This document shows, in pieces, positions 4,892 to 64,000 of a stretch of DNA of 64,000 bases. The notes beneath the pieces are model-generated. The model did no database searches and was not told the DNA's origin. It was given only the letters and a program-made list of their open reading frames with translations. Position 1 is the first letter of the stretch, and every line of letters starts with the position of its first letter. The stretch is from Opitutus sp. Lineage in GTDB: Bacteria; Verrucomicrobiota; Verrucomicrobiia; Opitutales; Opitutaceae. Position numbers and translations under genes: made by a program. The stretch covers positions 1,426,001 to 1,490,000 of the forward strand of contig JACEUQ010000001.1 of the NCBI GenBank assembly GCA_024998815.1, given 5' to 3'.

Positions 4892-5977
4892 TCAGTGGTG
4901 ATGATGATGACCCGCGCCCTCGTGGGAATGGTCATGGCCGCAGCCCTGCGAAGTGCAGGCTTTCGCCCACGTGCCGTCTTCGCCGGCGCGATCGTCTTCG
5001 ACCGGCATTTCGCCGCCGAGCGGGTGCATGCCGAGACGACGCAGCAGGGTGAAATCTTCACCGCGGCCGGGATTGGGCGTAGTGAGGAGTTTTTCACCAA
5101 GGAAAATGCTATTGGCGCCCGCCGAGAAACACAGCGCCTGCAGCTCATCGCTCATGTGGGTGCGCCCAGCCGAGAGGCGGACCATCGTCTTCGGCATGAG
5201 GATACGCGCGACCGCGATCACGCGGACGAACTCGATCGGATCGACCGGGTCGTTTTCCGCCATCGGGGTGCCTTCGACGGGGACGAGGGAGTTAATCGGC
5301 ACCGAGTCGGGATGGGGGCTGAGGCTGGCGAGTTCGTGCAGGAGCTTGATGCGGTCGTCGAGGGATTCACCCAGGCCGATGATGCCGCCGCTGCACACTT
5401 CGAGGCCGGCGCGGCGCACCGTTTCCAGGGTGGTCAGGCGGTCGTCGTAGGTGCGGGTGGTGATGATCTCGGGGTAAAACTCGCGCGACGTATCCAGGTT
5501 GTGGTTGTAAACCTTGCAGCCGGCCTCCTTGAGGCGAACAGCCTGGTGTTCTTGGACCATGCCGAGGGTGCAGCACACCTCGAGACCGAGGTCGGCCACG
5601 CCTCGAACGGTGTTCAGCACGGAGTCGAATTGGGCGCCGTCGCGCACTTCGCGCCAGGCCGCGCCCATGCAAAAGCGCGAAGCCCCGCCGGCCTTGGCCG
5701 CGCGGGCGGCGACGAGAACTTGCTCGGTAGCCATGAGCGGCTCGGGCAGCAGCGCGGCGTCGGGATGGTGAGCGGATTGCGGGCAGTATTTGCAGTCTTC
5801 CTGGCAGCGGCCGGTCTTGATCGACTGCAGGGTGCAGAGCTGCACCGCGTCTGCGTCGTGGTGCGTGCGGTGCACCTGCATGGCGCGGAACAGCAGCTCA
5901 GGGAATGGCAGGTCGTAGAGCGCTCGAATGGCGCGCAAGTCGGGCGTGGCGGAGGTCGTGGCGGTGGTGGAGTTCAT
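4892..5977 (-). CDS. bioB: BioB, biotin synthase
   Basis: A 361-residue radical SAM enzyme that inserts sulphur into dethiobiotin. The [4Fe-4S] SAM cluster ligands are C58, C62 and C65 in [11 protein letters not shown]. Other BioB signatures are present: [32 protein letters not shown], and the arginine-containing VRLSAGR expected to hold the auxiliary cluster. The C-terminus is extended by a histidine- and cysteine-rich tail ending [15 protein letters not shown], which is not part of the catalytic barrel. The gene lies 36 bp upstream of bioD/F and overlaps bioA by 4 bp. Confidence 0.96.
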
Positions 5978-7311
5978 ACGAGGAAAGGGAGGGTGTCGTC
6001 GATGGAGCGACGGGTGCGGTTAACCAGTTCGCCGAGCTCGGCCTGATCCAGGCAAAGCGGCGGCACGAGCAGAAGAGAATCACCGAGTGGGCGCAGCAAA
6101 AGCCCGTGATCACGGGCGCGCAGGCAGACCTGCAAACCCGCGCGCAACGCCACCGGATACACCCCGCCGCCCGCGGGCGCGAGGTCGATGGCAGAGGTCA
6201 ACCCGCGCTGGCGCAGGTCTGACACATGCGGGTGCCCGGCAAACGCCTCGGTCAGCAAGCGCCCAAACACCTCGGCGCGCGCCGCGATCACGCCGCTCTC
6301 GATGAGCGGGCGCAGTTTGCGAATGTTGGCTAAAGCGACGGCCGCCGCCAGAGGGTTGCCGGTAAACGTATGCCCGTGGAAAAACGCCCTCCGGCTTTCG
6401 TAGGCGCCAAGGAAGGCGTCGTAAATTTCACCGCGCACCAGGGTCGCGGCCAGCGGCAGGTATCCGCCGGTGAGCCCCTTGGCCAAACACAGAAAATCGG
6501 GCGTCACCCCTTCTTGGGTACAAACGAGCATCGGCCCGAGGCGGCCAAAGCCGACAAACACCTCGTCCATGATCAGGTGCACCCCGTGGGCCCGGCACAG
6601 TTCGGCCACCGCGCGAATAAACCCGGGAGGTTGCAGGCGCATTCCGGCGGCGCCTTGAACGGAGGGCTCAATGATGAGGCAGGCCGTCTCGTCGGCCTTG
6701 GCCTGCAACAACGCGGCGAGCGCCGCCAAGCTGGCGGTCGCGTCATCGGCCGCAGGAGCCGGAAAGTGATCGGCCCCAAAACACCAGGGGCGAAAGCGGT
6801 CGTGAAAAAAGCCACTGTCGCCCACCGCCATGGTCCCGAACGTGTCGCCGTGATAACCCCCGGCCATACCGATGACCCCGCGCTTTTCGGGGCGACCGGC
6901 GAGTTGCCAAAATTGAAACGATTGTTTGAGGGCGACCTCAACCGCACCGGAACCGTTGTCGGTGTAAAAAACATGCTCGAGCCCGCGCGGGGCGAGGCTG
7001 ACCAACTCCGCGGCCAAATCCGCGCCGGGGGCGTGGGCAAGGCCGAGCAAAGTAGCGTGGGCAACGCGGCCGAGCTGGTCGATCAACGCGGCGTTAAGAT
7101 CAGGGTCGTTGTGGCCGTGAACATTGGTCCAGATCGAGGCGGTGCCATCGAGGTAGGTGCGCCCCTCGGTATCGGTGAGCCAGCCGCCCCGACCCGAAGC
7201 GATCACCAAAGGAGGTAAGGAAGCGTATTCGCGCATCTGGCTAAACGGATGCCACACATGGCGCCGATCCGTCTCAACGGTCGAAGCGGTGGTGGGTGTG
7301 GCGAGTGTCAT
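5974..7311 (-). CDS. bioA: BioA, adenosylmethionine-8-amino-7-oxononanoate aminotransferase
   Basis: A 445-residue fold-type I PLP aminotransferase, converting KAPA to DAPA with SAM as amino donor. Seen in the sequence: HVWHPFSQM (BioA N-terminal signature), [37 protein letters not shown], the PLP-interacting DEVFVGFGR (249-257), the PLP lysine K278 in CLAKGLTGG, and [11 protein letters not shown]. It is the first gene of the biotin operon; the ATG at 7311 gives a normal-length BioA and lies 54 bp from the probable BirA operator. Confidence 0.96.
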
Positions 7312-7365
7312 GGCGCGGCGCGGTTTCGCTACACCTACCGAAGCGCCCGGGTGAGAACAAGTCCA

Positions 7366-7397
7366 TTGTTAGCCAACCCACGAAAACGTGTTAACAA
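7366..7397. promoter_or_regulatory. Probable BirA operator upstream of the biotin operon
   Basis: Two 9-bp half-sites, TTGTTAGCC (7366-7374) and TGTTAACAA (7389-7397), form an inverted repeat separated by exactly 14 bp. Each differs by one base from the TTGTTAACC / GGTTAACAA halves of the biotin-repressor operator known in many bacteria, which have a 14-16 bp spacer. It lies 54 bp upstream of the bioA start. The half-sites could overlap a promoter, but no clear -35/-10 pair was identified. The BirA gene is not in this window. Confidence 0.7.
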
Positions 7398-7458
7398 GAC
7401 TCGTACTTACCGACAAAAGAAGCCGCCAGACGGCGCACAGCTGTCGCGGCTGCCCAAC

Positions 7459-15231: not shown

Positions 15232-16725
15232 ATGAAGTCAAAACCCGTATCCGCCACCTCGGCCATTGCCCTGCAACGCTGGTTGCGTCCGGCGCTAACG
15301 CCAGTCGGTGCCAATAAAGATTACGCCGAGTTTCGCCAGCAATTGGAAGGACTCGACGCGTTGTTGCGTGGCAGCCACTTGGAGACGATGGCGATGGACT
15401 TTGCCAAGGCGGGGGCAGGCCAAGCCAGTGTCGCACAACTACGCCAGCGTATGGAGTTTGCGCTCAAAGCGTTACGCTTTGAAGTGTTGCGGGTGCATTT
15501 GGGCAACATATCCTTTCGCGAGCTTTCCCGTAGCATTGCCTCAAGTGATTTACTGGCGGATTTTTGCGGTGTTCGCACGCTTGAGGGAATCAAGGGGGCG
15601 TCCAAAAGTGTGCTGGAGCGGGCCTCGAAGTTTTTCACCGCCGAACAGGTGCGCTGGATGGGGCAAGTGTTGGTGGAGATGTGCGGCGAGAAGGATCGCG
15701 CCACTGAACTCGGGTTGAGCGCGCCGCTGGACATGGATGTTTGCCTCATCGACGGCACGTGCTTGGAGACCAACATCCACTTCCCGGTGGACTGGGTGCT
15801 GTTGCGTGATGTGTCCAAGACTTTGCTCAAGGCCATGATTTTAATCCGCCGCGCTGGACTGCTCCACCGTATGCCTGAAGAGCCGGAGTGCTTTGCCAAG
15901 CAGATGAACAAGTTGTGCATGTCAATGACCCACGCAGGCCGCCGCAACGACGCCAAGCGCGCGCGTAAACAGATCCTGCGCAAGATGAAGACGCTGTTAC
16001 GCACGATCGGAGAACATGCCCGCCGCCACCGCGACCTGTTGGCGCAGAAGTATAGCCAAACCCATTACAGCCAACGCCAAACCAAGCGGATAACCACCCG
16101 CATCGACGCTATGCTCGGCCAACTGCCCGCCGTCATCAAGCAGGCCCACGAGCGCATCATCGGCGGACGCCCGGTGCCCAACGACCAAAAGATCCTCAGC
16201 GTGCATGAACTTGATGTGAACGTACTGGTTCGCGGCAAAGCAGGGAGCCAAGTCGAGTTTGGCAACTCGTTGCTGTTGAGCGAGGCGCTCTCCGGTTTAA
16301 TCACCGACTGGCAACTCTACCAGGGCGCGGCTCCGGCAGAATGGTGCCAACTCGAGGAAAGCCTGGCGCGGCAGAACCGCTTTGACCTGAGTGCGCCGAT
16401 TAGCGCGGTCGGCACCGACCGCGGCTTCGCCACCAAAAAAACTTCCGCAATGCTCAAGCAACAAGACGTTTACGATGCGGTATGCCCGCGTGATCCGCAC
16501 GCGCTCAAGGAGCGTTTGAGCGAAAAACGCTTCGCCCAATTGCAGCGGCGCCGTTCGGCGACCGAAGCGCGCATTGCGATCCTCAAACAACGCCTCGGCG
16601 GACGCTTGCGCTGTAAAGGGTTTGCCAACCGCTACCGTTCGGTGGGTTGGAGTGTACTCGGTCACAACCTCTGGCTGGTGTCACGAATCCTTGCCGAGGA
16701 AATAACACTTCCGCTGGCCGCTTAA
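15232..16725 (+). CDS. Transposase of ISNCY-like element, copy 1
   Basis: A 497-residue DDE transposase. Candidate catalytic acids are D in VCLIDGTCLETNIHFP (about residue 180), D in AVGTDRGFATKK (about 398) and E in RRSATEARIAILKQ. The pattern of the first motif, with E-T-N-I-H-F/Y-P, matches transposases filed as ISNCY (and near IS1182). The C-terminus ends LPLAA, as does the 1.9-kb element's transposase here, which suggests the two families are related. Intact in copies 1, 2 and 4. Confidence 0.88.
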   Translation: MKSKPVSATSAIALQRWLRPALTPVGANKDYAEFRQQLEGLDALLRGSHLETMAMDFAKAGAGQASVAQLRQRMEFALKALRFEVLRVHLGNISFRELSRSIASSDLLADFCGVRTLEGIKGASKSVLERASKFFTAEQVRWMGQVLVEMCGEKDRATELGLSAPLDMDVCLIDGTCLETNIHFPVDWVLLRDVSKTLLKAMILIRRAGLLHRMPEEPECFAKQMNKLCMSMTHAGRRNDAKRARKQILRKMKTLLRTIGEHARRHRDLLAQKYSQTHYSQRQTKRITTRIDAMLGQLPAVIKQAHERIIGGRPVPNDQKILSVHELDVNVLVRGKAGSQVEFGNSLLLSEALSGLITDWQLYQGAAPAEWCQLEESLARQNRFDLSAPISAVGTDRGFATKKTSAMLKQQDVYDAVCPRDPHALKERLSEKRFAQLQRRRSATEARIAILKQRLGGRLRCKGFANRYRSVGWSVLGHNLWLVSRILAEEITLPLAA

Positions 16726-36744: not shown

Positions 36745-37048
36745 CTGGCTGGACCACCGGCTGGTGCGGGGCAATTACCTGGGGCGGGCCAGTGCCCCCG
36801 CCTGGGGCCTCTATCTGGTCCTGGTCACCGTGGGCGACGCCGACGGGCTGAGTTACTACGCCACGCGCACCCTGGCCCGGCTGCTCACGCTCAGCGAGGA
36901 CGGCCTGGTCGAGGCGCGCCGGCAGTTAATCGAGGCCGGGGTGATCGCCTACGCCGCGCCACTTTACCAGGTGCTCTCCTTGGACCGGGGCAGGCCAACG
37001 CACACGCTGGCGGCAACGCCGCCGCCGAGCCGGGAGGTGGGCGCGTGA
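36689..37048 (+). CDS. IS21 accessory protein 2, winged-helix-like
   Basis: A 119-residue protein. LDHRLVRGNYLGRASAPAWG, GLSYYATRTLARLLTLSEDG and EARRQLIEAGVIAY have the layout of a small winged helix-turn-helix, as in plasmid or phage replication-initiator and regulator domains. Its stop overlaps the istA start by 4 bp (start codon of istA is in the ATGA-like junction GTGATCG), so it is co-expressed with the transposition genes. Function unknown; DNA binding is inferred from the fold pattern. Confidence 0.65.
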   Translation: MQKQPIDREQLRRTPAQFSWLDHRLVRGNYLGRASAPAWGLYLVLVTVGDADGLSYYATRTLARLLTLSEDGLVEARRQLIEAGVIAYAAPLYQVLSLDRGRPTHTLAATPPPSREVGA

Positions 37049-38511
37049 TCGATTACGAACTGTATTGCCGGATAAAACAGGCGGAGGCGGCCGGTCACAG
37101 TGCGCCGCAAATCGCCCGCTCGCTCCAGTTGCACGTGCAGACGGTGAGGCGCTGGCAGGCGCAGGAAAAGTACGTGCGCAGCCAGGCCGCGCAGGTGCCT
37201 AGGCCAAGCAAGCTCGACGTGCACAAGCCGGCGATCGCGCGCTGGCTGGAGGCCCATCCGTTCACCGCCATGCAGCTCTGGCAAAAGGTGCGCGAGCGGG
37301 GGTACACGGGCGGGTATTCAATTTTGAAAGACTACGTGCGGCGGGTGCGGCCGAGGAACCTGGAGGCGTTTCTTACCCTCAAGTTTGCCCCCGGCCAGAC
37401 CGCGCAGGTGGACTGGGGCAGTTTTGGCGCGGTGGAGGTGGACGGCACCCGGCGGGCTTTAAGTTTTTTCGTCATGGTTTTGGGGTACAGCCGGTTCCTG
37501 CATGTGGAATTTACCCTCGGGCAGGGCCAGGAGTGGTGGCTGGGCTGTCACCGGCGCGCCTTTGAAAAACTCGGCGGGGTGCCGCGCGAGGTGATGGTGG
37601 ACAACTGCAAGACGGCCGTCCTCTCGCATGTGCCCGGGACCGACCCGGTGTACAACGCCCAGTACCTGGACTTTGCCCGGCACTACGGGTTTACGATAAA
37701 AGCGTGCGGGCCGGGGCATCCGCAGTCCAAGGGCATGGTGGAAAACGCGGTGGGTTACGTGAAAAAAAGCTTCCTTGGCGGGCGGCAGATGAACGGGTTT
37801 ACCGAGCTGGGGCCGGCCGCCAGCTTGTGGCTGGAAACGGTGGCCAACGTGCGCGTTCACGCTGAAACCCAGGGCCGGCCGGTGGACCGGCTGCCCGAGG
37901 AGCGCGCTGCGCTCCTGCCGCTTAACCCGGTGGCCAGTCCGGCGGTGCGCACCTTAAGCGTGCGGGCGTCGCGGCGGTGCCGGGTGAGTATCGAAACGAA
38001 CCGCTACTCGGTGCCCACGAAGTTTGCCGGGGCGCTACTCACCGCGCAGATCGAGGGGGCGCAGGTGAGGTTTTATGCGGACCGCACCCTGGTGGCCGAG
38101 CATGCCCGCAGTTTTGCCCGCCGCGCCGATGTGGAAAACCCCGAGCATGTGCGCGAACTCGAGGAGCGCAAACGGCAGGGGGCGCGGCAGCGCCTGCGGC
38201 TACGGTTTTTGGAACTGAGCCCGGCGGCACCCGCCTACCAACGGGGGCTGGAGGAGCGCCGGCTCAACGCGGGACACCACCTGGCGACTATCGTGGGTTT
38301 GGTGGCCCTGTATGGAACGGAGGCAGTCGGCCGGGCGATCGAAAGCGCCCATGAACTCGGCGCCTACTCCAGCGATTACATCCTCAACTTGCTCGAACAA
38401 CGCGCGCGGGCCTTGCCGCAAGCCGGGCCGATCCACCTCACCCGCGCCGACGCGTTGGCCGCACTGGAACTCGAACTGCGTCCCCCGGATTTAAGCCCCT
38501 ATACCCAATGA
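37045..38511 (+). CDS. istA: IstA, IS21-family transposase
   Basis: A 488-residue transposase starting with GTG. An N-terminal helix-turn-helix (AAGHSAPQIARSLQLHVQTVRRW, split across about residues 14-36) is followed by the rve-type DDE core: D in TAQVDWGSFGAV, D in EVMVDNCKTAVL and E in KGMVENAVGYVKK. The C-terminal region has RRCRVSIETNRYSVPTKFAG, the usual IstA DNA-binding stretch. It overlaps istB by 4 bp, the normal IS21 arrangement. Confidence 0.95.
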   Translation: MIDYELYCRIKQAEAAGHSAPQIARSLQLHVQTVRRWQAQEKYVRSQAAQVPRPSKLDVHKPAIARWLEAHPFTAMQLWQKVRERGYTGGYSILKDYVRRVRPRNLEAFLTLKFAPGQTAQVDWGSFGAVEVDGTRRALSFFVMVLGYSRFLHVEFTLGQGQEWWLGCHRRAFEKLGGVPREVMVDNCKTAVLSHVPGTDPVYNAQYLDFARHYGFTIKACGPGHPQSKGMVENAVGYVKKSFLGGRQMNGFTELGPAASLWLETVANVRVHAETQGRPVDRLPEERAALLPLNPVASPAVRTLSVRASRRCRVSIETNRYSVPTKFAGALLTAQIEGAQVRFYADRTLVAEHARSFARRADVENPEHVRELEERKRQGARQRLRLRFLELSPAAPAYQRGLEERRLNAGHHLATIVGLVALYGTEAVGRAIESAHELGAYSSDYILNLLEQRARALPQAGPIHLTRADALAALELELRPPDLSPYTQ

Positions 38512-39275
38512 AAACAGAACCCGAAAAAACCGATTTATTAAAAGATCAACTCAAGTACCTGAAACTCGGTTACCTGCTGCGCCACCACGGCGAACTCACG
38601 GCCGAGGCGGCCAAGGCGCGCTGTTCGCACGCCGAATTTTTACGCCGACTGGTGCAGGCCGAGACCCAGGACCGCCAGATCCGGGCGCTGGAGCGGCGCA
38701 TCCAGGCAGCGCGCTTCCCGGTCAAGAAAACCGTCGACCAGTTCCAGTGGGACTGGCCCAAGGAGTTGAACGAAGCGCAGGTGCGGCACCTCTTCGAACT
38801 GGGCTTTGTCAAGGAGCGCACCAACGCGGTGTTTTGCGGTGGTGTGGGGCTTGGGAAGACACATCTCGCGAGCGCGTTGGGCTACGCGGCGTGCCAGGCG
38901 GGCTACACGGTGCTGTTTACGACGGCGGTGGACGCGATCAACGCCCTGGTCACCGCCCAGTCCCTGCACCGGTTGCAAGCCGAGTTGAAGCGTTACATGA
39001 CCCCTGCGGTGCTCGTGCTCGATGAGGTCGGCTACCTGCCGCTCGACAAGTCGGGGGCCGACCTGCTCTTCCAGATCGTCAGCCAACGCTACGAACGCGG
39101 CTCGCTGATCGTCACCACCAACAAGGCCTACAAACACTGGGCAGGGATCTTTAACAACGACGCTGGCATCACCGCGGCGATCCTGGACCGCCTACTGCAC
39201 CGGGCCCAGACCGTCGTCATCGAGGGCAAATCCTACCGCATGAAAGACCGCCTGGCCGACGAACCTGCAAGCTGA
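38508..39275 (+). CDS. istB: IstB, IS21-family helper ATPase
   Basis: A 255-residue DnaC/IstB-like AAA+ ATPase that helps IstA choose targets. Walker A is GGVGLGKTHLA (about 111-121), Walker B is VLVLDEVGYLPLD, and sensor 1 is SLIVTTNKAYKHW. The N-terminal IstB-specific helices (LLKDQLKYLKLGYL) are present. Length is typical and the gene is intact, so the element may be capable of movement unless the ISL3 insertion blocks the left-end promoter. Confidence 0.95.
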   Translation: MKTEPEKTDLLKDQLKYLKLGYLLRHHGELTAEAAKARCSHAEFLRRLVQAETQDRQIRALERRIQAARFPVKKTVDQFQWDWPKELNEAQVRHLFELGFVKERTNAVFCGGVGLGKTHLASALGYAACQAGYTVLFTTAVDAINALVTAQSLHRLQAELKRYMTPAVLVLDEVGYLPLDKSGADLLFQIVSQRYERGSLIVTTNKAYKHWAGIFNNDAGITAAILDRLLHRAQTVVIEGKSYRMKDRLADEPAS

Positions 39276-54407: not shown

Positions 54408-56235
54408 AGAGCCTGTCCCAAATTTCCGGATTTTTAAAAAGTGCGCAGAGGTCCATTGGGATTGCGGGCGAACGAGGTGGCACGAATCACCCCAGCGACG
54501 TTAAACGGCGGCCCGAATCGATTTTTCCCGCCCCCAAGCGCGGTAGTAAGGTACGGCAAAGCCGGGGCGAGCCCCAGGGTTATTCACATTTTTGCCGGAA
54601 AATTGAATTAAGCGGCCAGCGGAAGTGTTATTTCCTCGGCAAGGATTCGTGACACCAGCCAGAGGTTGTGACCGAGTACACTCCAACCCACCGAACGGTA
54701 GCGGTTGGCAAACCCTTTACAGCGCAAGCGTCCGCCGAGGCGTTGTTTGAGGATCGCAATGCGCGCTTCGGTCGCCGAACGGCGCCGCTGCAATTGGGCG
54801 AAGCGTTTTTCGCTCAAACGCTCCTTGAGCGCGTGCGGATCACGCGGGCATACCGCATCGTAAACGTCTTGTTGCTTGAGCATTGCGGAAGTTTTTTTGG
54901 TGGCGAAGCCGCGGTCGGTGCCGACCGCGCTAATCGGCGCACTCAGGTCAAAGCGGTTCTGCCGCGCCAGGCTTTCCTCGAGTTGGCACCATTCTGCCGG
55001 AGCCGCGCCCTGGTAGAGTTGCCAGTCGGTGATTAAACCGGAGAGCGCCTCGCTCAACAGCAACGAGTTGCCAAACTCGACTTGGCTCCCTGCTTTGCCG
55101 CGAACCAGTACGTTCACATCAAGTTCATGCACGCTGAGGATCTTTTGGTCGTTGGGCACCGGGCGTCCGCCGATGATGCGCTCGTGGGCCTGCTTGATGA
55201 CGGCGGGCAGTTGGCCGAGCATAGCGTCGATGCGGGTGCATAGCGTCGATGCGGGTGGTTATCCGCTTGGTTTGGCGTTGGCTGTAATGGGTTTGGCTAT
55301 ACTTCTGCGCCAACAGGTCGCGGTGGCGGCGGGCATGTTCTCCGATCGTGCGTAACAGCGTCTTCATCTTGCGCAGGATCTGTTTACGCGCGCGCTTGGC
55401 GTCGTTGCGGCGGCCTGCGTGGGTCATTGACATGCACAACTTGTTCATCTGCTTGGCAAAGCACTCCGGCTCTTCAGGCATACGGTGGAGCAGTCCAGCG
55501 CGGCGGATTAAAATCATGGCCTTGAGCAAAGTCTTGGACACATCACGCAACAGCACCCAGTCCACCGGGAAGTGGATGTTGGTCTCCAAGCACGTGCCGT
55601 CGATGAGGCAAACATCCATGTCCAGCGGCGCGCTCAACCCGAGTTCAGTGGCGCGATCCTTCTCGCCGCACATCTCCACCAACACTTGCCCCATCCAGCG
55701 CACCTGTTCGGCGGTGAAAAACTTCGAGGCCCGCTCCAGCACACTTTTGGACGCCCCCTTGATTCCCTCAAGCGTGCGAACACCGCAAAAATCCGCCAGT
55801 AAATCACTTGAGGCAATGCTACGGGAAAGCTCGCGAAAGGATATGTTGCCCAAATGCACCCGCAACACTTCAAAGCGTAACGCTTTGAGCGCAAACTCCA
55901 TACGCTGGCGTAGTTGTGCGACACTGGCTTGGCCTGCCCCCGCCTTGGCAAAGTCCATCGCCATCGTCTCCAAGTGGCTGCCACGCAACAACGCGTCGAG
56001 TCCTTCCAATTGCTGGCGAAACTCGGCGTAATCTTTATTGGCACCGACTGGCGTTAGCGCCGGACGCAACCAGCGTTGCAGGGCAATGGCCGAGGTGGCG
56101 GATACGGGTTTTGACTTCATGGCCGATTATAGCGGCTTTTTTTTGACCAAAACCAGGGAATTACCCCTCTTTAGGCATCATTAAACTTATGCTAATAGTT
56201 CACTGCTAGGTTTTTATGCTTTCGGGACAGGCTCT
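54408..56235 (-). mobile_element. 1.8-kb ISNCY-like element, copy 3 (1828 bp, mutated)
   Basis: Same ends as the other copies, flanked by a perfect AATT duplication (54404-54407 and 56236-56239). It is 19 bp longer because 55219-55237 is repeated in tandem at 55238-55256 inside the transposase gene. Confidence 0.95.
54608..56120 (-). pseudogene. Transposase of copy 3, frameshifted by a 19-bp duplication
   Basis: Reading from 56120, the protein matches the intact copies up to about residue 294 (TTRIDAM), then the 19-bp duplication (not a multiple of three) shifts the frame and the sequence diverges until a stop. The C-terminal 204 residues remain open as a separate frame (55222-54608) starting at MLGQLPAVIKQ. 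The two last catalytic acids are therefore separated from the first, so this copy should be inactive on its own. Confidence 0.95.
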
Positions 56236-59987: not shown

Positions 59988-61796
59988 AGAGCCTGTCCCG
60001 AAAGCATAAAAACCTAGCAGTGAACTATTAGCATAAGTTTAATGATGCCTAAAGAGGGGTAATTCCCTGGTTTTGGTCAAAAAAAAGCCGCTATAATCGG
60101 CCATGAAGTCAAAACCCGTATCCGCCACCTCGGCCATTGCCCTGCAACGCTGGTTGCGTCCGGCGCTAACGCCAGTCGGTGCCAATAAAGATTACGCCGA
60201 GTTTCGCCAGCAATTGGAAGGACTCGACGCGTTGTTGCGTGGCAGCCACTTGGAGACGATGGCGATGGACTTTGCCAAGGCGGGGGCAGGCCAAGCCAGT
60301 GTCGCACAACTACGCCAGCGTATGGAGTTTGCGCTCAAAGCGTTACGCTTTGAAGTGTTGCGGGTGCATTTGGGCAACATATCCTTTCGCGAGCTTTCCC
60401 GTAGCATTGCCTCAAGTGATTTACTGGCGGATTTTTGCGGTGTTCGCACGCTTGAGGGAATCAAGGGGGCGTCCAAAAGTGTGCTGGAGCGGGCCTCGAA
60501 GTTTTTCACCGCCGAACAGGTGCGCTGGATGGGGCAAGTGTTGGTGGAGATGTGCGGCGAGAAGGATCGCGCCACTGAACTCGGGTTGAGCGCGCCGCTG
60601 GACATGGATGTTTGCCTCATCGACGGCACGTGCTTGGAGACCAACATCCACTTCCCGGTGGACTGGGTGCTGTTGCGTGATGTGTCCAAGACTTTGCTCA
60701 AGGCCATGATTTTAATCCGCCGCGCTGGACTGCTCCACCGTATGCCTGAAGAGCCGGAGTGCTTTGCCAAGCAGATGAACAAGTTGTGCATGTCAATGAC
60801 CCACGCAGGCCGCCGCAACGACGCCAAGCGCGCGCGTAAACAGATCCTGCGCAAGATGAAGACGCTGTTACGCACGATCGGAGAACATGCCCGCCGCCAC
60901 CGCGACCTGTTGGCGCAGAAGTATAGCCAAACCCATTACAGCCAACGCCAAACCAAGCGGATAACCACCCGCATCGACGCTATGCTCGGCCAACTGCCCG
61001 CCGTCATCAAGCAGGCCCACGAGCGCATCATCGGCGGACGCCCGGTGCCCAACGACCAAAAGATCCTCAGCGTGCATGAACTTGATGTGAACGTACTGGT
61101 TCGCGGCAAAGCAGGGAGCCAAGTCGAGTTTGGCAACTCGTTGCTGTTGAGCGAGGCGCTCTCCGGTTTAATCACCGACTGGCAACTCTACCAGGGCGCG
61201 GCTCCGGCAGAATGGTGCCAACTCGAGGAAAGCCTGGCGCGGCAGAACCGCTTTGACCTGAGTGCGCCGATTAGCGCGGTCGGCACCGACCGCGGCTTCG
61301 CCACCAAAAAAACTTCCGCAATGCTCAAGCAACAAGACGTTTACGATGCGGTATGCCCGCGTGATCCGCACGCGCTCAAGGAGCGTTTGAGCGAAAAACG
61401 CTTCGCCCAATTGCAGCGGCGCCGTTCGGCGACCGAAGCGCGCATTGCGATCCTCAAACAACGCCTCGGCGGACGCTTGCGCTGTAAAGGGTTTGCCAAC
61501 CGCTACCGTTCGGTGGGTTGGAGTGTACTCGGTCACAACCTCTGGCTGGTGTCACGAATCCTTGCCGAGGAAATAACACTTCCGCTGGCCGCTTAATTCA
61601 ATTTTCCGGCAAAAATGTGAATAACCCTGGGGCTCGCCCCGGCTTTGCCGTACCTTACTACCGCGCTTGGGGGCGGGAAAAATCGATTCGGGCCGCCGTT
61701 TAACGTCGCTGGGGTGATTCGTGCCACCTCGTTCGCCCGCAATCCCAATGGACCTCTGCGCACTTTTTAAAAATCCGGAAATTTGGGACAGGCTCT
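59988..61796 (+). mobile_element. 1.8-kb ISNCY-like element, copy 4
   Basis: 1809 bp, same ends as copies 1 and 2. The flanks do not match (AACT left, ATAT right), and the sequences on the two sides belong to unrelated broken genes. This is the signature of recombination between two IS copies, or of a deletion beside the element. Confidence 0.94.
60103..61596 (+). CDS. Transposase of ISNCY-like element, copy 4
   Basis: Identical in amino-acid sequence to the transposases of copies 1 and 2; intact, with TATAAT just before the ATG. Confidence 0.9.
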   Translation: MKSKPVSATSAIALQRWLRPALTPVGANKDYAEFRQQLEGLDALLRGSHLETMAMDFAKAGAGQASVAQLRQRMEFALKALRFEVLRVHLGNISFRELSRSIASSDLLADFCGVRTLEGIKGASKSVLERASKFFTAEQVRWMGQVLVEMCGEKDRATELGLSAPLDMDVCLIDGTCLETNIHFPVDWVLLRDVSKTLLKAMILIRRAGLLHRMPEEPECFAKQMNKLCMSMTHAGRRNDAKRARKQILRKMKTLLRTIGEHARRHRDLLAQKYSQTHYSQRQTKRITTRIDAMLGQLPAVIKQAHERIIGGRPVPNDQKILSVHELDVNVLVRGKAGSQVEFGNSLLLSEALSGLITDWQLYQGAAPAEWCQLEESLARQNRFDLSAPISAVGTDRGFATKKTSAMLKQQDVYDAVCPRDPHALKERLSEKRFAQLQRRRSATEARIAILKQRLGGRLRCKGFANRYRSVGWSVLGHNLWLVSRILAEEITLPLAA

Positions 61797-62521
61797 ATAT
61801 AGACGCGCAGGACCGGACTGGGTCGGTAGGTTTTCGTTCGCATTTCCTCCGCCAGCGCAAGCAGCCATGCCGCCCGATAGGCTTCGTTCTTTACGAGCGT
61901 TTCCACCTCGAACCCGTCCACTCCCGGCACGCCGTCATTGGCGATCACCTGATCGAGCGCATCCGACAGAATGTCCTGCCGATACAGCTCTCCATACAAA
62001 CTATAGAACCGCCAATGCGGCTCCGCTTTTGCTTTCCGATATAGCACACGTTGCAGCTTCCGAACCTTCGGTGACGTTTTTATCCAGAGTTCATCACCCC
62101 AGCCATCGTCGGGTCCTTTGCCGCTCTGTGATGCGTGGGAACAAGTGCCCTCCCTTCGCTCCCCGGCGGTTTTAATGTCCGCTAGATCATCACTACTATG
62201 GAGGTCTCCGACTCCTGCCACGGCCCGTCCGGCCTTACGAGGTTTTGCCGCGCTTGTGCCGGTGGTTGAGGCATCGCAAGACGCCCCACCGCCGCAGGTC
62301 TCACCACTTAACCTAACGACCTTTCCCACCCCGCCGCCCCCGCTGACTCCGCCGACGTGTTGATCGGAAATCAACGATTTAGGTCCTACGTCTTTGCGAG
62401 ACTGCCTTTTCCGATCCTTGCAGGCTTCACCGTTCAGGTAGCGGCTGGACTCGTCGGTTGTTTCGGTAACGGAGCTCATTGGATGGGGTTCACCTTCGTT
62501 GCGGCTGACTGGTTCGGGCAC
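61797..62521 (-). pseudogene. Group II intron reverse transcriptase (LtrA-like), N-terminal fragment
   Basis: From the possible start at 62521 the first 145 residues are Ser/Gly-rich and may be intron RNA domain sequence that happens to be open; an RT more likely begins nearer KVRKLQRVLYRKAKAEPHWR (about residue 152). The RT-0 region follows: FYSLYGELYRQDILSDALDQ, NDGVPGVDGFEVE, LALAEEMRTKTYRPSPVLRVYI. The protein is cut just where PKPDG would normally follow RVYI, before the YADD active site. Confidence 0.85.
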
Positions 62522-62642
62522 ACGGTCGTGCTTTCCGGCGAGGCCTCGCGGCCTGCATCCGTGACCGGGCCCTTCGACCGCGAATCGTTAAATTCGGTCG
62601 AACAGACTTTCACTGTTATGGTTGTTAGTTTCATGGTCGCAC
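61797..62642 (-). mobile_element. Group II intron, 5' fragment truncated by IS copy 4
   Basis: On the minus strand a GTGCGACC at 62642 fits the conserved GUGYG 5' end of a bacterial group II intron. It is followed by about 120 bases of potentially structured sequence and then by the reverse transcriptase frame. Everything beyond the RT N-terminus, including the catalytic domains V and VI, is missing at the IS junction, so the intron cannot splice. The 5' flank (TTCCGTGGTTAAAACTTCGG) is a dispersed intergenic repeat. Confidence 0.7.
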
Positions 62643-62961
62643 ACCTGAACGCCGAAGTTTTAACCACGGAATTCACAGATGAGCACAGATAACAGAGTGT
62701 TACTGAATTTGAAGACAGGATGAAAAAAAGGGGATCAAGCTGAGTCCGTTTACCTCCTAAGGGATTGTATCTGTGAAATCTGTGTAATCTGTGGTTGGTT
62801 TGAACTTCGGAATTCAGGATAAACCGAGCATCGAAGTCACCTCGTTTGACCTCAAATGCATCCGACAACTCGAAGGTTACTGCCTACTAGGTTAACTTAA
62901 TGTCTAACCGTGAGCATTTATGGTACGTCAGCCTCATTTGCCCCTTTCATCGGGACTTTAA
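62643..62961. repeat. Gene-free spacer with 'ATCTGTGAATTCCGTGG'-type inverted repeat
   Basis: Arms GTTTTAACCACGGAATTCAC (62656) and, opposite, ATCTGTGTAATCTGTGGTTG (62779) surround a central stretch; then CATCCGACAACTCGAAGGTT (62858), related to 45366, and ACTGCCTACTAGG. No gene is supported. Confidence 0.7.
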
Positions 62962-62977
62962 ACGACGTTTGACCCAC
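62962..62977. repeat. Solitary 16-bp site, same family as the phased arrays
   Basis: ACGACGTTTGACCCAC, 86 bp left of the first array; possibly the last site of an eroded third unit. Confidence 0.7.
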
Positions 62978-63047
62978 CTTTTTGATCGATATGGGTAATT
63001 GTTGGATCGGTCCCGCAGCAATTGCCCCCGGAATACCCTTATCTCTA

Positions 63048-63344
63048 CCGAGGTTTGACCCATGGATTAAAGACTTTTCACCCAAGAAACCACGATAGGT
63101 GACCCACATCAGTCGTAACGCTGACGATGTCTGGCCCATCAATGCCTGACAGTTCACCCATGATTTACCGACTTCTGGCCCACATAAAACCCTTCTTTAT
63201 GTTGATTATCAGATGTTTAATGGTAGTAGAACAGATAGGAACTTGTTTGCTAAGATAAGAAGAACAACAGGTGATCGTGATTTGCTGCTGTTTTTTTAAA
63301 TGTTATTTATGATTAAGCAGTTAAATGCCCCCTGATTAAGCATA
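63048..63344. repeat. 297-bp unit 1: six helically phased 16-bp sites plus AT-rich tract
   Basis: Sites of consensus CCGAC(N3)TG(A/G)CCCAC start at 63048, 63070, 63092, 63124, 63146 and 63168: spacings 22-22-32-22-22. The last site ends CCCACATAAA. The following tract is AT-rich, contains AGTAGAACAGATA (63225), GTTTGCT (63245) and AGATAAG (63253), and ends in a weak hairpin followed by TTTTTTT (about 63264-63297). Unit 1 is more degenerate than unit 2. No open frame spans it. Confidence 0.9.
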
Positions 63345-63610
63345 CCGACTTTTGGCCCACAATTTACCGGTTTTTGACCCACCGAATCCCGACATCTGAC
63401 CCAGTTCGTCCAAAGGGTTCCCGACGTCTGACCCACGAACTACCGATATTTGAACCCTGTTATGCCGACTATTGACCCACATAAATAGAGGGTTATCATT
63501 TGTAATCAAGTACTTAAATTAAGTAGAACAGATATGACTTTGTTTGCTCAGATAAGATAAAGAAAGCAGAACAGGCACACGATCTGTTGGTGCTGTTCTT
63601 TTTTGACTCT
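63345..63610. repeat. Unit 2: six helically phased 16-bp sites plus AT-rich tract
   Basis: Sites start at 63345, 63367, 63389, 63421, 63443 and 63465: again 22-22-32-22-22. Best copies are CCGACTTTTGGCCCAC and CCGACGTCTGACCCAC. The block again ends CCCACATAAA, then AGTAGAACAGATA (63522), GTTTGCT (63542) and AGATAAG (63550), each exactly 297 bp from its counterpart in unit 1. All twelve sites lie on one helical face (22 bp is about two turns, 32 about three). Confidence 0.92.
63568..63604 (+). terminator. Terminator-like hairpin closing unit 2
   Basis: AGAACAGGCAC (63568-63578) pairs with GTGCTGTTCT (63590-63599), with one bulge, followed by six T. No protein gene precedes it on this strand, so it would end a non-coding transcript if functional. 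Confidence 0.6.
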
Positions 63611-63887
63611 TTTGATCGTGCCGAAATCACCGATTGGCTAACCCCGTAGCCTGCTACGCTACCGGGCCGTGACTCGTAAAATGGAAGTTGCTCTTAACGA
63701 GCTACTTTTAACGGTGAACGCGGGCTAGGACGGCGTTAGCCGATCTTCGGTTGGATCGTAAGCGCTCACCACGAAGGCATCGTTCGCGCCCCTCTTGCCA
63801 AGCTTGTTGAGTAAAATTCGACCAGAGAAACGATCCTTTCACGCATAATGCCTTGAAAAACAAATTCATCACATTAAATATTCAAGG
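63605..63887. other. Spacer left of the ATPase gene, with a possible minus-strand gene remnant
   Basis: GATTGGCTAAC (63632) and GTTAGCCGATC (63735) form an inverted repeat 92 bp apart. On the minus strand, from about 63838 to the TAG at 63725, a 37-residue frame (DRFSGRILLNKLGKRG, NDAFVVSAYDPTEDRLTPS) looks protein-like, perhaps the end of a decayed gene. Not assigned. Confidence 0.35.
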
Positions 63888-64000
63888 ATGATAGCCCGTC
63901 GCCGGCTCACCGCCCAACTGGAATGCAGCGTAGCCGAGAGCCGAATCACCGCGATTTTAGGCCCTCGCCAATGTGGTAAAACCACTTTGGCCCGAGCTTT
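63888..64000 (+). CDS. ATP-binding protein of the AAA/DUF4143 type, 5' part
   Basis: Only the first 37 codons are in the window (MIARRRLTAQLECSVAESRI and onward). The P-loop region ILGPRQCGKTTLARAF matches the opening of the large family of ATPases with a C-terminal DUF4143 domain, whose members usually read GPRQVGKTTLAR; here a cysteine replaces the valine. A weak AAGG precedes the ATG directly. Function of this family is not well defined; it is common near mobile DNA and toxin-like genes. Confidence 0.75.
   Translation, partial: MIARRRLTAQLECSVAESRITAILGPRQCGKTTLARA

Follow-up and report, generated by a model that had tools for sequence, protein, structure and literature searches.

The question raised by this locus is what a doubled array of short repeats is doing on a bacterial chromosome, i.e. 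whether it is a replication origin, a transposon end, a regulatory region or an old repeat. The array is near the right-hand end of a 64,000 nucleotide stretch of Opitutus sp. DNA (contig JACEUQ010000001.1), which is termed the window here. The array is real, it is regular and single-copy, its repeats are probably protein binding sites, and the order of its parts is origin-like; neither a partner gene for it nor a relative was found. The 16-bp putative sites, extracted by reading of the sequence, are arranged head-to-tail in two blocks of six. Both blocks display the pitch 22-22-32-22-22, and the offset from block 1 to block 2 is 297 bp. The features of the region that precede the AT-rich tracts, together with block 2, are as follows.

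Positions 62962–62977, plus strand: thirteenth site, standing alone 86 bp ahead of block 1, score 21.6
Positions 62993–63027, plus strand: 12-bp inverted repeat in the gap from the lone site to block 1; two of its pairs are G-T
Positions 63048–63183, plus strand: block 1, sites at 63048, 63070, 63092, 63124, 63146 and 63168
Positions 63345–63480, plus strand: block 2, sites at 63345, 63367, 63389, 63421, 63443 and 63465

An earlier note, made from the letters of the sequence, had described twelve sites in two identically spaced blocks 297 bp apart and a thirteenth site at 62962, and this description is borne out by extraction and by cross-validated matrices. The lone site is the top single site outside of the blocks with all three matrices (block A, block B and both). 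The consensus given in the note fits 11 of the 13 sites within three mismatches (the exceptions are 63070 and 63443), but it is too strict, being exact in 4 of 13. Over the whole window, matches to it with up to three mismatches number 47 against a chance mean of 48.1. The match count is at chance level, thus the signal resides in the clustering and the pitch. The inverted repeat, taken as RNA, gives about −17 kcal/mol in a 70-nt fold; this is equaled by 37 of 200 shuffled sequences and is not significant.

For cross-validation, a matrix was built from one block and a six-position template was scored with it over 101 kb on both strands. The block B matrix scores 83.5 on the block A template, where the mean of all positions is −76.5 (sd 14.8), and its next best scores elsewhere in the 101 kb are 10.7 (plus strand) and −16.6 (minus strand). 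Conversely, the block A matrix scores 99.0 on the block B template, with next best scores in the 101 kb of 5.5 (plus) and −13.5 (minus). Each matrix thus finds the other block at the exact template and nothing comparable in the 101 kb on either strand. The arrangement of the array is not due to chance. It is also single-copy in its own genome, and the alternative that the note itself had named, an ordinary dispersed repeat, does not describe it. On the other hand, the searches revealed no relative in which a gene accompanies the array.

The sites have been kept while the bases between them have diverged, as the note had stated: the two blocks are identical at 68 of 96 site positions and at 17 of 40 inter-site positions. 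At equivalent sites, 11.3 of 16 positions are alike between the blocks, against 11.0 of 16 at non-equivalent sites. Equivalence thus adds no likeness, and the blocks are held only to the consensus; that this is true of both copies suggests that the sites have been in use, at least formerly. The low inter-site agreement, together with the equivalent sites being no closer than the others, also makes the duplication of the 297-bp unit look old. The proposal that the spacing places all sites on one helix face is roughly true, but the six sites drift by approximately 150 degrees at 10.5 bp per turn. Predicted binding by one protein, and the parallel drawn with plasmid iterons, are supported by this architecture. 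A coding repeat was considered and rejected; the pitch is indivisible by 3 and the open reading frames that overlap the blocks do not exceed 79 aa.

An AT-rich tract comes after each block, and the tracts contain further elements.

Positions 63184–63340, plus strand: AT-rich tract of unit 1, 32% GC, homologous to the unit 2 tract
Positions 63207–63219, plus strand: IHF-like motif TATCAGATGTTTA, unit 1, one mismatch
Positions 63225–63237, minus strand: 13-mer TATCTGTTCTACT, unit 1
Positions 63481–63610, plus strand: AT-rich tract of unit 2, 33% GC
Positions 63504–63516, plus strand: IHF-like motif AATCAAGTACTTA, unit 2, exact, in register with that at 63207
Positions 63522–63534, minus strand: 13-mer TATCTGTTCTACT, unit 2, in register with and identical to the copy at 63225
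Positions 63560–63604, plus strand: hairpin then T6, terminator-like, unit 2, −13.4 kcal/mol

The GC fractions of the tracts (0.32 and 0.33) compare with 0.59 for the window. The tract-to-tract alignment score is 130, where the maximum of 200 shuffles is 93; since the tracts align along their length, the 297-bp unit has truly been duplicated, in agreement with the claim that an AT-rich tract was duplicated after each block. Among the non-overlapping 100-bp stretches of the 64 kb, the one that starts at 63466 is the least stable and the one that starts at 63216 is fourth. Of the least stable stretch (63466–63565), 85 of 100 bases are inside the unit 2 tract.

The consensus for IHF binding is WATCAANNNNTTR. 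In the two IHF-like motifs ATCA and TTA are kept and the bases between them are changed. A further motif with one mismatch is at 63846, outside of the units, and the exact motif occurs three times in the window when both strands are counted. In random tract-like sequences the exact motif is expected by chance in 1.7% of cases for one tract and in 4.5% for both tracts together, thus the motif at a shared offset is suggestive only, as a candidate bend site. The 13-mer TATCTGTTCTACT differs at two positions from an E. coli oriC 13-mer, a type of unwinding repeat, and is likewise suggestive of an unwinding-type element; its two copies are not independent as the tracts are homologous. The earlier note had observed neither the IHF-like motif at its shared offset nor the proneness of the tract to melting. 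A tract-encoded peptide was rejected: unit 1 has a 28-aa open reading frame, but by eye the copies differ non-synonymously and the unit 2 frame is cut short by a stop. A sigma-54 promoter was also rejected, the spacing being wrong by eye.

The order of the parts, i.e. sites, bend site and melting tract, is that of iteron origins, which suggests that the locus works like an origin or derives from one. Six head-to-tail sites in each unit would be bound by one sequence-specific protein, which would load along them. An IHF/HU-type protein would bend the DNA and fold the six sites towards the AT tract, and after folding the tract would open. The sites would then be replication initiator binding sites. 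Judged by sequence, the array has directly repeated, roughly phased, initiator-like sites, and the adjacent AT-rich region of low GC and low stability appears to be of the kind found at an iteron origin. The interpretation favored here, tentatively and with somewhat less than even confidence, is that this is an origin-like locus of the iteron type, made up of two tandem units and stranded or recruited on the chromosome.

Known iteron origins offer several comparisons. The R6K iteron is 22 bp long, the chlamydial repeats are also 22 bp, and the chlamydial phylum is thought to be related to that of the present host. The ori2 of Vibrio cholerae, which has RctB iterons, is described as having six head-to-tail 12-mers with 10 or 11 bp spacers, together with a site for IHF and a region rich in A-T (PMC6090056). 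The array resembles it in layout, with six head-to-tail sites at a pitch of about 22 bp, a candidate IHF site and an AT-rich region. However the site sequence is different, the GATC present in each ori2 12-mer is absent from the array sites, and the array has two units with no DnaA box in them. The R6K gamma origin, RK2 oriV and other iteron plasmids likewise have direct, roughly phased iterons beside an A+T-rich neighbor; a bending protein acts there, and the RK2 13-mers are partly like those of E. coli (PMC5043065). Unlike these, the array displays a triplet-10 bp-triplet grouping, the whole module is duplicated, and the genome is without a credible Rep_3 initiator. The chlamydial plasmid also has an iteron origin; Pgp2 is predicted to be its initiator from its modeled fold, which is similar to pi, RepE and RctB, and from its operon with a helicase (PMC11895440). 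That origin is on a plasmid with its own initiator gene in an operon, and it is likened to the array by description.

No initiator gene was seen beside the array. A search of the genome gave no credible Rep_3 match; the single match (E-value = 0.18) is below the cut-off, and the only long open reading frame at its locus is DnaJ-like by eye. The missing match counts little against an origin, as Pgp2 itself was predicted to be an initiator from a modeled fold. No DnaA box with up to one mismatch is present in the blocks or the tracts, and the only one in positions 62825–63900 is at 63808 (one mismatch). The array does not coincide with a switch in GC skew, which, taken in 4-kb steps, is −0.04 (60 kb) and −0.07 (64 kb) and is positive only from 68 to 84 kb. 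With no credible Rep_3 initiator, no DnaA box, and replication only predicted, the locus is not classed as a member of the iteron origins. Because no initiator has been found, the most likely form of the origin-like interpretation is that a replicon which was lost or became integrated left its origin stranded here, and that this origin persists as a relic or serves in titration or regulation. The array may still be used by an unrecognized initiator. That it is an additional origin in active use, or that of a replicon class not yet described, with two six-site/bend/unwinding modules and an initiator of unknown family, is quite improbable.

The AT-rich tracts also have a bearing on the main rival explanation, a doubtful one, in which the blocks serve as operators for a tandem pair of small RNA genes. 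There would be a regulator on the six sites, an IHF-like bend, a promoter in the AT tract and a short RNA that ends at a hairpin and T-run. The hairpin and T6 of unit 2 fit this, as only 8 of 200 shuffles are as good, and unit 1 has a T7; however the unit 1 counterpart of the hairpin is equaled by 126 of 200 shuffles, whole-tract folding deviates from shuffles by a z no further than −1.34, and a terminator scan of the region found none. Similarly, a promoter-like pair is found at 63472–63499 with its −35 hexamer within the last site, but such pairs occur in the region at chance (2 against 1.8 expected). The tract core is identical in both units at 42 of 57 columns, which also fits this explanation; yet it matches only one other of 371 genomes of the order (E-value = 0.009), and there is no Rfam match at E ≤1.

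The note had also proposed the multiple transposase sites of a Tn7/Tn5053/Mu-type end, and here the results are adverse. According to this explanation, the array would be the transposase sites of one Tn7/IS21/Mu-type end with a TGTGGG... terminus, the other end having been lost. The sequence CCCACA does close both blocks, and the genome is rich in IS21, with 54 transposase matches in 4.24 Mb, 50 of them over the cut-off. IS21 repeats usually number at least two per end, and are 23 bp apart in the element studied (PMC10122671), so that a likeness in pitch to the array exists. The terminal inverted repeats of IS21 thus resemble the array in having direct repeats of similar pitch and a TGT/ACA outer end. 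They differ in that the array has six repeats per block and no second end, and the ends of the main IS21 of this genome are unlike it: the boundaries agree in seven copies, and the element starts TGTGAGCGGCG (read in one copy), not TGTGGG. An inverted six-site array is present neither in the 64 kb to the left nor in the 37 kb to the right, where the extension advised in the note gave only isolated minus-strand single sites (15.6 at 18 kb and 12.3 at 8.6 kb past the window end). The best minus-strand template score in the 101 kb is −28.5, against 108 and 123 for the blocks. Two blocks would in addition mean two nested ends in tandem, the duplication takes in sequence outside of the supposed end, site clusters are lacking at five minor IS21 loci, and the array is single-copy. 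A transposon end is therefore considered very unlikely.

The occurrence of the array in other genomes was also analyzed. Every genome sample includes the source genome; the samples overlap and were not summed, and those of more than 40 genomes were searched with stricter filters which lose weak matches. A two-site pattern with up to one mismatch is found in 1 of 273 genomes of the order, and a site triplet model (R1) at E 0.01 in 1 of 120 genomes of the family; in both cases this is the source itself. At E 0.1, R1 matches 13 of 387 genomes of the phylum, i.e. the source and 12 others (E 0.005–0.09), where about 39 are expected by chance. When all 12 were scanned, none was found to have at least three such sites arrayed with a 22-bp pitch. 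There are pairs 22 bp apart in L092, L096 and L097, 24 bp apart in L099 and 44 bp apart in L100, and such pairs are what the best match to the model looks like. The R1 match in G441 was rejected as an 11-bp tandem repeat. Among 13 genomes of the genus at E 1, two others match R1 (E 0.2 and 0.6), and the tract model R2 matches one other among 372 genomes of the order (E 0.009).

No match was obtained by blastn against plasmid and phage records. In 28 relatives, the sole element to match elsewhere by blastn is a dispersed repeat at 62844–62896. This repeat has many copies in two relatives of the genus (G283 and G279) and several in the present genome. The array was not found in viral contigs across the pattern scans; the matches there were rejected, since three phage contigs have a palindromic repeat that is unrelated and four others have isolated pairs. 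The three phage contigs (L074, L075 and L076) have in common an array of GACCCATTTTGGGTT palindromic repeats beside an AT-rich repeat stretch.

To the left of the array is the 5′ part of a group II intron (61796–62824), which is 99.6% identical to positions 6370–7398 of L022. The L022 copy (5226–7398) has a 580 aa reverse transcriptase open reading frame, and its domain V is recognized by Rfam. The intron is found in at least 22 other places in the genome over more than 1 kb at 98%–100% identity (23 of 296 candidates were scored), thus it has spread strongly. Other mobile sequences are also present in the window. A copy of the IS21 family is at 37045–39275 with ends TGTGAGCGGCG, and a 497 aa transposase-like open reading frame has four copies at 15232, 43292, 54608–56120 and 60103. 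The scanned copy of the latter has no Pfam match, and its minus-strand copy is split into two open reading frames.

To the right of the array is an AAA_14/DUF4143 ATPase gene, followed by an HU-family gene approximately 2 kb past the array (L022 4584–4889). With the best candidates per genome scored, the HU gene has matches in 10 of 12 other genomes of the genus, and the ATPase gene in one, over 81 bases. Ten nearby proteins were scanned, and none is a plasmid or replication protein: one is the HU protein, one an ISL3 transposase, and eight are of chromosomal type (TatC, pantothenate kinase, two ABC-transport proteins, three glycosyl/sugar transferases and one hexapeptide/STAS protein). No replication or partition gene is among the 17 different proteins scanned in all.

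These surroundings relate to two further explanations. A partition centromere or titration site, where the array would hold a segregation or regulatory protein without opening of the DNA, is quite unlikely. Plasmid centromeres are also arrays of direct repeats, no initiator would be needed, and the single-copy location on the chromosome is suitable; however the 17 proteins from the window and just beyond include no partition gene, and the AT tract and its in-register motifs are left unexplained. An old tandem repeat without present function is improbable. It would agree with the array having been found in no other genome sampled and with its position, which has a broken intron on one side and, on the other, a gene that matches hardly any DNA of the genus, but in both copies the sites are kept to the consensus and the spacers are nearly randomized.

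If an initiator binds the array, it would be an iteron-type replicon module, in a lineage (Verrucomicrobia) for which a literature search found no paper on iterons, and it could provide genetic tools with an origin. Should no initiator bind, this is still a very regular multi-site array, and its protein could be retrieved directly with the array DNA.
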